NCBI RefSeq assembly: GCF_000336755.1
Contig: NZ_AOLK01000023.1
Span: forward strand, 1-53,068
Direction: 5' to 3'
Length of the DNA: 53,068 bases
From: Haloferax elongans ATCC BAA-1513
GTDB lineage: Archaea > Halobacteriota > Halobacteria > Halobacteriales > Haloferacaceae
Position 1 is the stretch's first letter. Each line of letters starts with the position of its first letter. The notes under the pieces were generated by a model. That model made no database searches, was not told where the DNA came from, and worked only from the letters and a program-made list of their open reading frames with translations. The position numbers and the translations under genes were made by a program. This document shows, piece after piece, positions 3 through 53,068 of this stretch.

Positions 3-21
3 AGATGTGTATAAGAGACAG
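3..21 (+). other. Tn5/Nextera mosaic-end adapter at left contig end (artefact)
   Basis: The 19 bases AGATGTGTATAAGAGACAG are exactly the transposase mosaic end used in Nextera libraries. They are preceded by AG and followed directly by GC-rich coding sequence. This is sequencing-library DNA, not genome. Translating through it gives the tell-tale residues MCIRDS, so any gene start placed here is false. Confidence 0.97.
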
Positions 22-49358: not shown

Positions 49359-49388
49359 TTGTCGGAGATGCCGAGACACTGAATATTC

Positions 49389-49417
49389 CTCTTCGGCTGG
49401 GCAGGATAGCTGAAGAG
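49389..49417 (+). terminator. 10-bp hairpin after the PPOX-family gene
   Basis: CTCTTCGGCT pairs with AGCTGAAGAG (one G-T pair) across a 9-nt loop, 30 bp past the stop codon. No T-run follows; a transcript-end or RNA-stability role is possible. Confidence 0.35.
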
Positions 49418-49456
49418 AGACATCGTCAAGAGACCCTCTGAAACATCGTTCACGAG

Positions 49457-49511
49457 GTGAAGCTGGCTTCTGAAAACCCGTTCACAGAACAGTCGTTCAG
49501 ATAACACTTTT
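49457..49511 (+). promoter_or_regulatory. 55-bp promoter/operator copy A, upstream of the CPBP protease
   Basis: Matches 49 of 55 positions of the minus-strand sequence at 50764-50710. It holds a GAAGCTGGCTTC palindrome (49459-49470), a direct GTTCA repeat and a T-run box (ACTTTTT) centred about 27 bp before the ATG at 49537. Exactly 25 bp separate the element from the ATG, the same as in copy B. Confidence 0.8.
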
Positions 49512-49536
49512 TGAGAGACACGGTCCAGTTCTCGTG

Positions 49537-50322
49537 ATGGCAAATACGTCAGCAGTGCCAAGCGCAACTGAGGAGAGGAGACCAAGTGCAATAGCGAAGC
49601 GTATCGGGGTTTCGATAGCCCTCGTCACGGGTAGTGTCGTTTTGGGCCTCGCCTTCGCCGTCGCTCTCGGGTTCGGTGTCGCGGCAGCCACCGGTGGCCT
49701 GCCAGCCGACTTCGTCAGCGTGCTCGACCTCGTAACCACACAGTCGGGGTTCGCCATCGTCGCGCTGGGGTTTCTCGGCGGTGTCACGGGGTGGCAGTTC
49801 GTCGAGATTCGCAGACCGACGCGTAGTGAACTTCGACTCGTCGCTCCTTCGCTCGCCACAGTCCTAACCATCGAAGCGCTCCGACAGCTCGCAGTCCGTC
49901 AGGGATACGTCGGTGTCGCTGGCACGCTCTCGACGCCCGGAGAGATGAGTGCGACGGCGGTCGCCATTCTGTTGGGGGCAACTGTACTCCTCGCCCCACC
50001 CGTGGAGGAGCTCTTCTTCCGTGGCGTCGTACAACAGTACGTCGCGGATGTTGCGAGTCCAGCGGTCGGCATCGCCGTCGCGACGATACTCTTCGTCCCG
50101 GTCCACGGTTTCGGTATCCTCCTCACGGCTAGCAGTCTGATGGCAGCGGTTGTCGTTGTTCTCGTACTCGCGGTGCTCTCCACCGTCCTCGGTATGGCGT
50201 ACGCTCGAACCCAAAACCTAGCAATCCCGATAGCGATTCACGCAGGATACAATCTCCTCGCCGTCTTCGTCGCTATCGGTGTCCAACAGGTCTCACTCAC
50301 CGCGGAATTTCCCGTGTTCTGA
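49537..50322 (+). CDS. CPBP-family intramembrane glutamic endopeptidase (CAAX/bacteriocin-processing type)
   Basis: A 261-residue membrane protease with about seven helices. Catalytic motifs of the family: EELFFRG (Glu157, Glu158, Arg162), FVPVHGF with His190, and HAGYN with His235 and Asn239. Family members process prenylated proteins or act in self-immunity to peptide bacteriocins, so a halocin-immunity or membrane-stress role is possible, but nothing here proves it. The ATG at 49537 is preferred over the overlapping GTG at 49534 because its distance to the upstream element equals that at the gene at 50684. It is convergent with the small membrane protein. Confidence 0.92.
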   Translation: MANTSAVPSATEERRPSAIAKRIGVSIALVTGSVVLGLAFAVALGFGVAAATGGLPADFVSVLDLVTTQSGFAIVALGFLGGVTGWQFVEIRRPTRSELRLVAPSLATVLTIEALRQLAVRQGYVGVAGTLSTPGEMSATAVAILLGATVLLAPPVEELFFRGVVQQYVADVASPAVGIAVATILFVPVHGFGILLTASSLMAAVVVVLVLAVLSTVLGMAYARTQNLAIPIAIHAGYNLLAVFVAIGVQQVSLTAEFPVF

Positions 50323-50471
50323 CCCTCTACTCGGAAGCCAATGTCTAAGCTGAGTGTCTGGCAGACATCCTCGTCGCTGCCGCTGAATGGTAACTCGACG
50401 AAGCCCACCGCGACAACACCCGCCACGGGAGGGCGAAATCGGTTAGGAGGCGCTTCCTCTCGTGGCGAAGC

Positions 50472-50684
50472 TTACTCGTCTCCCTTCAAGAACCCGACCA
50501 TAATTCCGCTCGACATCCCCAGCATCATACCGGCACCAACCCCGAGAGCTGGCATGTCGATGGCCAACCCGGCGGCTAATCCGAGTGCTGAACCGAGGAA
50601 CATCCCGATTCCCATGAATGCGGGATTTAATCGGTTCTGCTCCTCAGTTTCGGCGGAGCCGTCATCTGAAATAGTACTTGACAT
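50472..50684 (-). CDS. Small glycine-zipper membrane protein (70 aa)
   Basis: A polar head (SSTISDDGSAETEEQNRLNP) is followed by a hydrophobic segment with regular small residues and three acidic or proline breaks (FMGIGMFLGSALGLAAGLAI, MPALGVGAGMMLGMSSGIMV) and a short FLKGDE tail. This gives two tightly packed helices. The ATG at 50684 is preferred over the GTG two codons upstream (50690) since it lies exactly 25 bp after a 55-bp promoter element identical in layout to that of the CPBP protease. It is probably co-regulated with it. No family recognised. Confidence 0.75.
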   Translation of the reverse strand: MSSTISDDGSAETEEQNRLNPAFMGIGMFLGSALGLAAGLAIDMPALGVGAGMMLGMSSGIMVGFLKGDE

Positions 50685-50709
50685 ACACACAGATACCGTG
50701 GATAACCTG

Positions 50710-50764
50710 AAAAGTGCTATCTGAATGAGTATTCTGTGAACGGATTTTCAGAAGCGAGCTTCAC
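50710..50764 (-). promoter_or_regulatory. 55-bp promoter/operator copy B, upstream of the small membrane protein
   Basis: Inverted copy of 49457-49511 with six mismatches. It reads on the minus strand GTGAAGCTCGCTTCTGAAAA, then CCGTTCACAGAA, TTCAGATAGCACTTTT, and ends 25 bp before the ATG at 50684. The palindrome GAAGCTCGCTTC is kept. Confidence 0.8.
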
Positions 50765-50834
50765 AAACACGAGATTGCAGTCCGAGACGAGTCGTTTCGA
50801 GACAAAAAGCCACTCGCCGAGGAGGTGAGAAGAG

Positions 50835-51764
50835 TTACTCGACAGACCGGGTCGAACTGACGACTTGGTGGTCGCTATCGAACGTCAGGTCTATCGTCTC
50901 GCCTTTCACAGCGAACGTGATTTCGACCCGAAGCGGGTCTGTTTGCACTACAGTCACCGATTCGTCGGCCGCGACCGTCACGTCGTGCCACTCTCGAACG
51001 AGCGGTGGCTCGAGTCCACCATCGATCAAGAACTGCCGTACCTCGTCCGTCGTCAGGGCAACAGAAGACAGGTCCGAGTAGTAGTAGTTATTGCAGACAG
51101 TACATCTCAGACTACTGATTACGCCACCGACAGACAGTGAATCGAGCCGGTCGTTCAGGTCGTCGACGAGTTTGGTCTCCACAGGACCGTCACAGGCCGG
51201 GCAGATGCCCTGTCTCGCGAGTCGTAGCTCGCTATAGAACGACCGAAAGGCTGCCTGGAGAGCGTCATCGTCGGTTCGATTGGTAAACCCGCGTGGAGAG
51301 AACGGAATCACCGCATATCCCGTTGTGCAAGCGTCACAGGAGAATACCAAAGCGTTGTCGGCGCGATACGTTGCCCGTACCGTTCCGCCACACGAGGGGC
51401 AGTCGTCGACATCAATGTCCGTGCGTATCTCCCGCTCTGTGAACGTCCCTGAGACGATTAGCCGGTATAATTGCATTCCGGGGTTGGGAAGCCAGTAGCC
51501 GTCGTCCGACTTGGCAACGAACGAGCCAACCAGTTTGTCGAGGTGGTAGTTGAACTGTCCGCTGTCGGTCAAGCCGACCGCCTCCATCAGTTCCGAGAAG
51601 CGTAGTTTCTGTTGTTGATGACGGCTCTCATCCCAGGCCTTTCCGAGTTCGACGAGTATCTCCATCCGGGTTTGTTCGCCGAGAATCGAGGTGGCCTCCT
51701 CAATGGAGATTGATTCGAACCCACCGATGTGATCGAGCATTTCGGAGCGATGTTCCTCGGCCAT
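50835..51764 (-). CDS. ArsR-type HTH transcriptional regulator with zinc-ribbon domains
   Basis: A 309-residue protein. The N-terminal winged helix spans about 20-100: EEATSILGEQTRMEILVELGKAW, LRFSELMEAVGLTDSGQFNYHLDKLV. Two cysteine knuckles follow, VDDCPSCGGTVRATYRADNALVFSCDAC (about 120-150) and GICPACDGPVE (about 185-195) with LRCTVCNNYYY (about 218-228), then a beta-rich C-terminal domain. The ATG at 51764 (MAEEHRSEMLDH) is chosen over the TTG four codons upstream. This architecture is common in haloarchaea as ArsR-like regulators of unknown signal. It is the nearest regulator to the paired promoters at 49457 and 50710 and a candidate to control them, by position only. Confidence 0.85.
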   Translation of the reverse strand: MAEEHRSEMLDHIGGFESISIEEATSILGEQTRMEILVELGKAWDESRHQQQKLRFSELMEAVGLTDSGQFNYHLDKLVGSFVAKSDDGYWLPNPGMQLYRLIVSGTFTEREIRTDIDVDDCPSCGGTVRATYRADNALVFSCDACTTGYAVIPFSPRGFTNRTDDDALQAAFRSFYSELRLARQGICPACDGPVETKLVDDLNDRLDSLSVGGVISSLRCTVCNNYYYSDLSSVALTTDEVRQFLIDGGLEPPLVREWHDVTVAADESVTVVQTDPLRVEITFAVKGETIDLTFDSDHQVVSSTRSVE

Positions 51765-51892
51765 TGCCCGTCTCAAAGGGAGTCCAGAACATAAACATCC
51801 TGTAGCAATGTATCGCTGGGTGTACAGCGGTCTCTCGGGGAATCTAGTCGAGACCTCTGAGTCCCTGCAATCGCTACTCGTTTCAACAGGTC

Positions 51893-53040: not shown

Positions 53041-53068
53041 CTGTCTCTTATACACATCTCTGATGGCG
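53041..53068 (-). other. Tn5/Nextera mosaic-end adapter and outer adapter tail at right contig end (artefact)
   Basis: 53041-53059 reads CTGTCTCTTATACACATCT, the reverse complement of the mosaic end. The following CTGATGGCG matches, from memory, the reverse complement of the inner end of the older 454-compatible Nextera adapter. Non-genomic. Confidence 0.96.

Follow-up and report, generated by a model that had tools for sequence, protein, structure and literature searches.

Why should two unrelated genes that face each other in a haloarchaeal genome be preceded by almost the same 55 nucleotides? We considered this question for a locus in a 53,068-nt stretch of DNA from Haloferax elongans ATCC BAA-1513 (contig NZ_AOLK01000023.1, positions 1–53,068, forward strand), which we call the window. 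A preliminary description had reported a near-identical 55-bp repeat, in inverted orientation, before two convergent genes. We reproduced this: a repeat search returned two 55-nt arms that are 89% complementary, with 1198 nt between them; direct comparison of the two copies gave 49/55 identities; and an ATG lies 25 nt past the end of each copy (at 49537 on the forward strand and 50684 on the reverse strand).

No other inverted repeat in the 53 kb comes close to it in strength, and it is the sole one of such quality. With an ungapped score (+1/-2), it reached 37, compared to a maximum of 24 in 40 dinucleotide shuffles and of 18 in 14 other 3.5-kb windows. The sequence GAAGCnnGCTTC occurs at two sites in the window, both within the repeat copies (0.07 expected), and BLAST against the 3.95-Mb genome found two full copies of the element, both at this locus. 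The repeat is real and far above chance.

The two genes encode a CPBP intramembrane protease and a 70-aa protein that we call M70 (Table 1). As the preliminary description had it, the proteins are unrelated: the protease contains PF02517, and searches of Pfam and NCBIfam placed M70 in no family. Next to M70 is a gene for a regulator with both a DUF7347 and a DUF7351 domain. Orthologs of this regulator (83–86% identical) are found beside the element in the two relatives described below. We saw no obvious box array in the regulator's own upstream region, no solved structure is similar to it by sequence, PADLOC identified no defense families, and a literature search turned up no paper that names DUF7347 or DUF7351.

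Table 1. Features of the locus, in window coordinates.
Feature	Position	Strand	Evidence
Accessory block (regulator, M70, CPBP), absent from this junction in congeners	~49368..51871		Comparison with congeners
Segment whose orientation to the regulator is reversed on plasmid pHl5678-1 of H. larsenii	49457..50764		Alignment, re-inversion
Copy 1: putative three-box operator and T-rich box before the CPBP gene	49457..49511	+	Repeat search, alignment
Box 1, copy 1: GAAGCTGGCTTC	49459..49470	+	Window count, box score, pattern scan
Box 2, copy 1: GAAAACCCGTTC (weaker in relatives)	49472..49483	+	Alignment, box score
Box 3, copy 1: GAACAGTCGTTC	49487..49498	+	Alignment, box score, pattern scan
T-rich box, copy 1: TTTTT, putative TATA element, ~27 nt before the ATG	49508..49512	+	Alignment; TTWT motif (PMC4983044)
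CPBP (Rce1-like) intramembrane protease gene, 261 aa	49537..50322	+	PF02517, E = 4.3e-16
M70 gene, 70-aa Gly-rich putative membrane protein	50472..50684	-	ORF; orthologs 61–64% identical
Copy 2: inverted orientation, before M70	50710..50764	-	Repeat search, alignment
T-rich box, copy 2	50710..50713	-	Alignment
Box 3, copy 2: GAATACTCATTC	50723..50734	-	Box score, pattern scan
Box 2, copy 2: GAAAATCCGTTC	50738..50749	-	Alignment, box score
Box 1, copy 2: GAAGCTCGCTTC	50751..50762	-	Window count, box score, pattern scan
Regulator gene, 309 aa: DUF7347 (helix-turn-helix) and DUF7351 (zinc-ribbon-like), putative box binder	50835..51764	-	PF24038, E = 2.2e-24; PF24042, E = 1.8e-37

Each copy of the element is made up of three tandem boxes of the form GAA-N6-TTC (columns 3–14, 16–27, and 31–42), followed by TTTT at columns 52–55. 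Box 1 and box 3 are 28 bp apart, and box 3 starts 21 nt before the T box. The palindrome that had been singled out in the preliminary description is box 1, and instead of one palindrome, the putative operator has three tandem boxes. The centers of the boxes are not all shared between the two copies: the 6-bp center of box 3 is CAGTCG in one and TACTCA in the other, the center of box 1 differs as well, and the longest identical run is about 12 bp.

Of the protein-coding transcripts of Haloferax volcanii, 72% have no leader, and haloarchaeal TATA elements follow the motif TTWT (PMC4983044). If transcription of our two genes is also leaderless, then the boxes would span about -78 to -39 relative to the ATG, with the T box at -29 to -26, in agreement with both of these features. 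All five known copies of the element (see below) have the TTTT box and 25 nt from there to the ATG, as expected for a leaderless haloarchaeal promoter. A scan for sigma-70 promoters and intrinsic terminators gave nothing useful. Overall, the conserved arms, the T box, and the spacing support the interpretation of the element as a putative operator plus core promoter, so that part of the earlier proposal stands.

The operator had been proposed on the understanding that it should be dropped if relatives lacked the element upstream of the orthologous genes. Instead, we found the element in two places beyond the H. elongans genome. In G034, which belongs to another genus of the same family, a regulator (83% identical) is followed by the element and then by an ortholog of M70 (64% identical); no CPBP gene adjoins this locus and there is no second copy of the element. 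Plasmid pHl5678-1 of Haloferax larsenii NCIM 5678 has the regulator (86% identical), CPBP, M70, and both copies of the element, one upstream of each gene.

Across these five copies, the columns that never vary are G.GAAGC..GCTTCTGAAAA..CG.T.ACAGAA...TC.TTC.GA.A....TTTT. Every copy has an intact box 1 and box 3, while box 2 is eroded upstream of M70 in H. larsenii and G034. Within the palindrome, the arms (GAAGC/GCTTC) are fixed and the two central bases vary, and the flanks and spacers drift; this is the pattern that the preliminary description expected of an operator. The spacers between the element and the ATG (25 positions) agree at 15–17 positions for orthologous genes and at 5–9 positions for non-orthologous genes. 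Because 5/5 copies keep the T box, its 25-nt distance from the ATG, and the arms of both outer boxes, the evidence supports the suggestion that the promoter was copied and is held by selection.

The exact element is rare: a scan of the GTDB r220 contigs with a strict pattern (GAAGCNNGCTTCTGAAAANNCG) hit unrelated organisms only, and a scan of viral contigs found none with CPBP, M70, or regulator genes. A phage search gave no match. A scan across the order that allowed 3 mismatches gave mostly noise, similar to the reversed control. We also considered other genomic sites that match GAAGCNNGCTTC (on contigs C13, C15, and C22), but these are at chance level for the pattern and lack the CPBP, M70, and regulator genes, so we disregarded them.

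To ask what might bind the boxes, we examined the regulator's paralogs, which are present in every genome of the genus that we examined. The pattern of the two outer boxes, GAA-N6-TTC-N16-GAA-N6-TTC, occurs at 7 sites in 15 congeneric genomes (~56 Mb), and the reversed pattern does not occur. Six of the seven sites fit: two are the copies in the window, two are at cupin loci, and two are at MFS loci. The seventh is in G006, where we saw no such context, and is probably due to chance. At the cupin loci (in G000 and G006), a paralog of the regulator is followed by GAAGAGCCTTTC-N16-GAAATGTCATTC and then by the cupin gene. The two MFS sites (in G009 and G013) are orthologous and lie upstream of an MFS gene that adjoins a CPBP gene. 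The order there is CPBP and then MFS (L162/L173 in G013 and L172 in G009), with two boxes 28 bp apart in the MFS promoter. Since no DUF7347-DUF7351 regulator is encoded within 1.5 kb of either MFS site, the sites need not adjoin a regulator, or else a further factor shares them. The MFS gene is a candidate for an unlinked member of the regulon, conserved in two species.

A looser version of the array was found at 13 loci, where three boxes in steps of 14 bp come after one paralog of the regulator (for instance, CATAAGCGCGCTACGGTAAGCCCGCTTACAGAAATGTAATTCAGATTACTATTTTGG). These loci are largely orthologs and count as about one independent case. They retain the distances of 28 bp from box 1 to box 3 and of 21 nt from box 3 to the T box. 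Where we read the downstream gene, it encodes a membrane protein of 118–133 amino acids with two transmembrane helices. We considered whether this protein is a homolog of M70, but similarity was not detectable.

We also scored flanks of regulator genes for tandem NAA-N6-TTN boxes with a T box 20–22 nt from box 3. A score of at least 15/19 was reached at 15/25 paralog loci and at 0/58 control flanks (none above 13). The five copies of the element score 17–19/19, and no other tile of the window exceeds 14. This score was written after some of the paralog loci had been seen, so the scan with the two outer boxes is the cleaner test. A related pattern gave 13 matches in 167 genomes of the family and 1 match in the control. 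Some groups of paralogs (such as L133, L143, and L155) lack a box array. In the upstream flanks of L153 and L154, another paralog has just one box, GAAGAAACCTTC, which lies 20 nt upstream of the TTTA box of a divergent gene of more than 200 amino acids.

Because the same operator design recurs beside paralogous regulators, the DUF7347-DUF7351 family most likely binds these boxes. This strengthens the link to the adjacent zinc-ribbon regulator that the preliminary description had drawn, with the regulator as the putative binder. On the other hand, its prediction of a two-gene regulon was too narrow, as the design also precedes the genes for cupin, MFS, and small two-helix membrane proteins.

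Alternatively, the element could be a constitutive promoter that was duplicated by chance along with a gene, with boxes that do not serve the regulator, or that are bound by an unrelated global factor. The MFS loci, which have the same boxes without an adjacent regulator of the family, are compatible with this, and the regulation of CPBP and M70 is itself deduced from sequence. However, the conserved sequence reaches 50 nt further upstream than the TATA region, which is more than a core promoter needs, and the same box spacing is found beside three separate groups of DUF7347-DUF7351 regulators. We consider this alternative rather unlikely.

The locus in H. larsenii differs in gene order. Reading from the regulator, the window has element-M70 and then CPBP-element, whereas H. 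larsenii has element-CPBP and then M70-element. The sequence just outside the repeat follows position (27/30 identical on the regulator side and 17/30 on the distal side, but 6–7/30 across), while the spacers just inside the repeat follow the gene (17/25 and 16/25). Column 21 of the repeat follows the flank, which puts the breakpoint between this column and the inner end of the repeat. When we re-inverted the H. larsenii segment in silico, a single alignment of 2381 bp at 83% identity to the window replaced three pieces. As judged from these alignments, H. larsenii carries the entire segment between the repeats in the opposite orientation relative to the regulator, and the breakpoint falls within the repeat. 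This is a new finding that the preliminary description had missed; as just two complete loci with both CPBP and M70 are known, the evidence for the inversion comes from a single pair. In either orientation, both genes retain the box array and the T box.

Could the segment be a mobile cassette of 1308 bp, with the repeats as its terminal inverted repeats? In the best BLAST piece, homology to the H. larsenii plasmid ends exactly at the ends of the repeat, and the block is absent from this junction in congeners. The inversion explains where that homology stops: on the opposite strand it runs on into the regulator, and upon re-inversion it forms an unbroken block of 2.38 kb that includes the regulator. 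Also, we found no transposase, the genome has one pair of repeats rather than the multiple copies or target duplications of a transposable element, and G034 has a single copy that serves as a promoter. A mobile cassette is very improbable; the mobile unit, if any, would be regulator+M70+CPBP.

Another potential explanation is an invertible switch, in which a recombinase flips the segment to place either CPBP or M70 after the regulator, giving two types of cells. Indeed, the segment occurs naturally in both orientations and the breakpoint falls within the repeat; tyrosine recombinases are encoded elsewhere in the genome (the nearest is on C23, ~16 kb away); and in H. larsenii an integrase gene lies ~6 kb away. 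But the two orientations are seen between species only, and both copies of the repeat carry a full promoter, so a flip leaves each gene with its promoter and cannot be a simple on/off switch. We found no invertase gene among the window neighbors that we examined, no match to the integrase family PF00589 in the window, and no PF00239 resolvase in the genome. The differing centers of boxes 1 and 3 and the short identical runs also argue against a switch, as does the conservation of the element in G034, where it is present in a single copy. A recombinase-driven switch seems improbable to us.

We give similarly little weight to a broader version, in which the duplicated operator is itself the recombination site and the locus flips reversibly within populations. 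If this were true, a flip would change which membrane gene adjoins the regulator (with effects via read-through, supercoiling, or dosage), and it would be a phase-variation design with the operator itself as the inverted repeat. Given that both promoters are kept, that identical runs are at most ~12 bp, that the box centers differ, and that neither a PF00239 resolvase in the genome nor a PF00589 match in the window was found, we prefer a passive, rare, and historical recombination over a phase switch.

Altogether, we think that the locus is probably explained by regulator-controlled promoters with three boxes, along with a segment flip that was tolerated. Each 55-bp copy would be the upstream operator and core promoter of a leaderless transcript, with the T box at -29 to -26 as its TATA element. 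Dimers of the adjacent winged-helix regulator would bind the three 12-bp boxes and thereby co-control the CPBP protease and the small Gly-rich membrane protein M70. Because the boxes are upstream of the TATA/BRE region, activation seems more likely than repression. The ancestral order was probably regulator, promoter, and M70, as in G034. A second copy of the promoter would then have come to precede the CPBP gene, which faced M70, and this created the inverted repeat. In the lineage of either H. larsenii or the window, recombination between the two copies, presumably by a homologous route, would have flipped the whole segment. Because each copy of the repeat carries the same promoter, both genes would have kept theirs and the flip would have been tolerated: the duplicated promoter would be the breakpoint of a gene-order inversion that left both promoters intact. 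This account also provides a candidate operator (tandem GAA-N6-TTC boxes, the third starting 28 bp after the first and 21 nt before the TATA box) for a family of haloarchaeal regulators with several copies per genome, and would tie the DUF7347-DUF7351 family to CPBP proteases, small membrane proteins, a cupin, and an MFS transporter.

ArsR-like winged-helix regulators have inverted-repeat operators. The arrangement here is similar in that a helix-turn-helix regulator gene lies beside putative GAA-N6-TTC inverted-repeat sites upstream of the target, but the regulator has a C-terminal DUF7351 zinc-ribbon-like domain and there are three tandem boxes. The class I intergenic repeats of halovirus HF2 are 58 bp and have promoter activity (PMC8707807). 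In both cases, a near-identical promoter repeat of ~55–58 bp precedes several haloarchaeal (or viral) genes; the HF2 repeats are viral, whereas ours precede two cellular genes, contain tandem GAA-N6-TTC boxes, and have a regulator gene nearby. The invertible tail-fiber locus of PhiCh1 (ORF34/35/36) encodes its own recombinase and exchanges the 3' ends of coding sequences (PMC4284463). Both loci are haloarchaeal in setting and have convergent genes on a segment that inverts, but here there is no recombinase, the repeats are promoters, and the inversion is between species only.

Finally, we considered the genomic context. The block has been added between a PNPOx-like gene (whose Pfam score is below the curated cut-off) and a gene for a DUF7282 surface protein, at a junction that is syntenic. 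In several congeners, only ~75 nt separate these two neighbors. In the closest relative (L104 300–1500, G009:C17), the junction holds other DNA, with small unrelated ORFs and a tandem duplication that is interrupted by an N. This junction may be an insertion hotspot.

Exact copies of the Nextera mosaic-end adaptor are present at both ends of the window (3–21 and 53041–53059). At the second of these, inside contig C23 (L132 42–90, C23:53041–53089), a short stretch that includes an N lies between two copies that face each other. The facing copies suggest that the window is an original contig that was joined to its neighbor through the adaptor, which cuts a DUF7282 gene.

In G462, a relative of M70 is found directly after a short CPBP ORF on the same strand (L099 1477–2218), without a regulator nearby. 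This CPBP ORF is 131 amino acids and is apparently truncated. The pairing of CPBP with M70 may be older than the inverted repeat.
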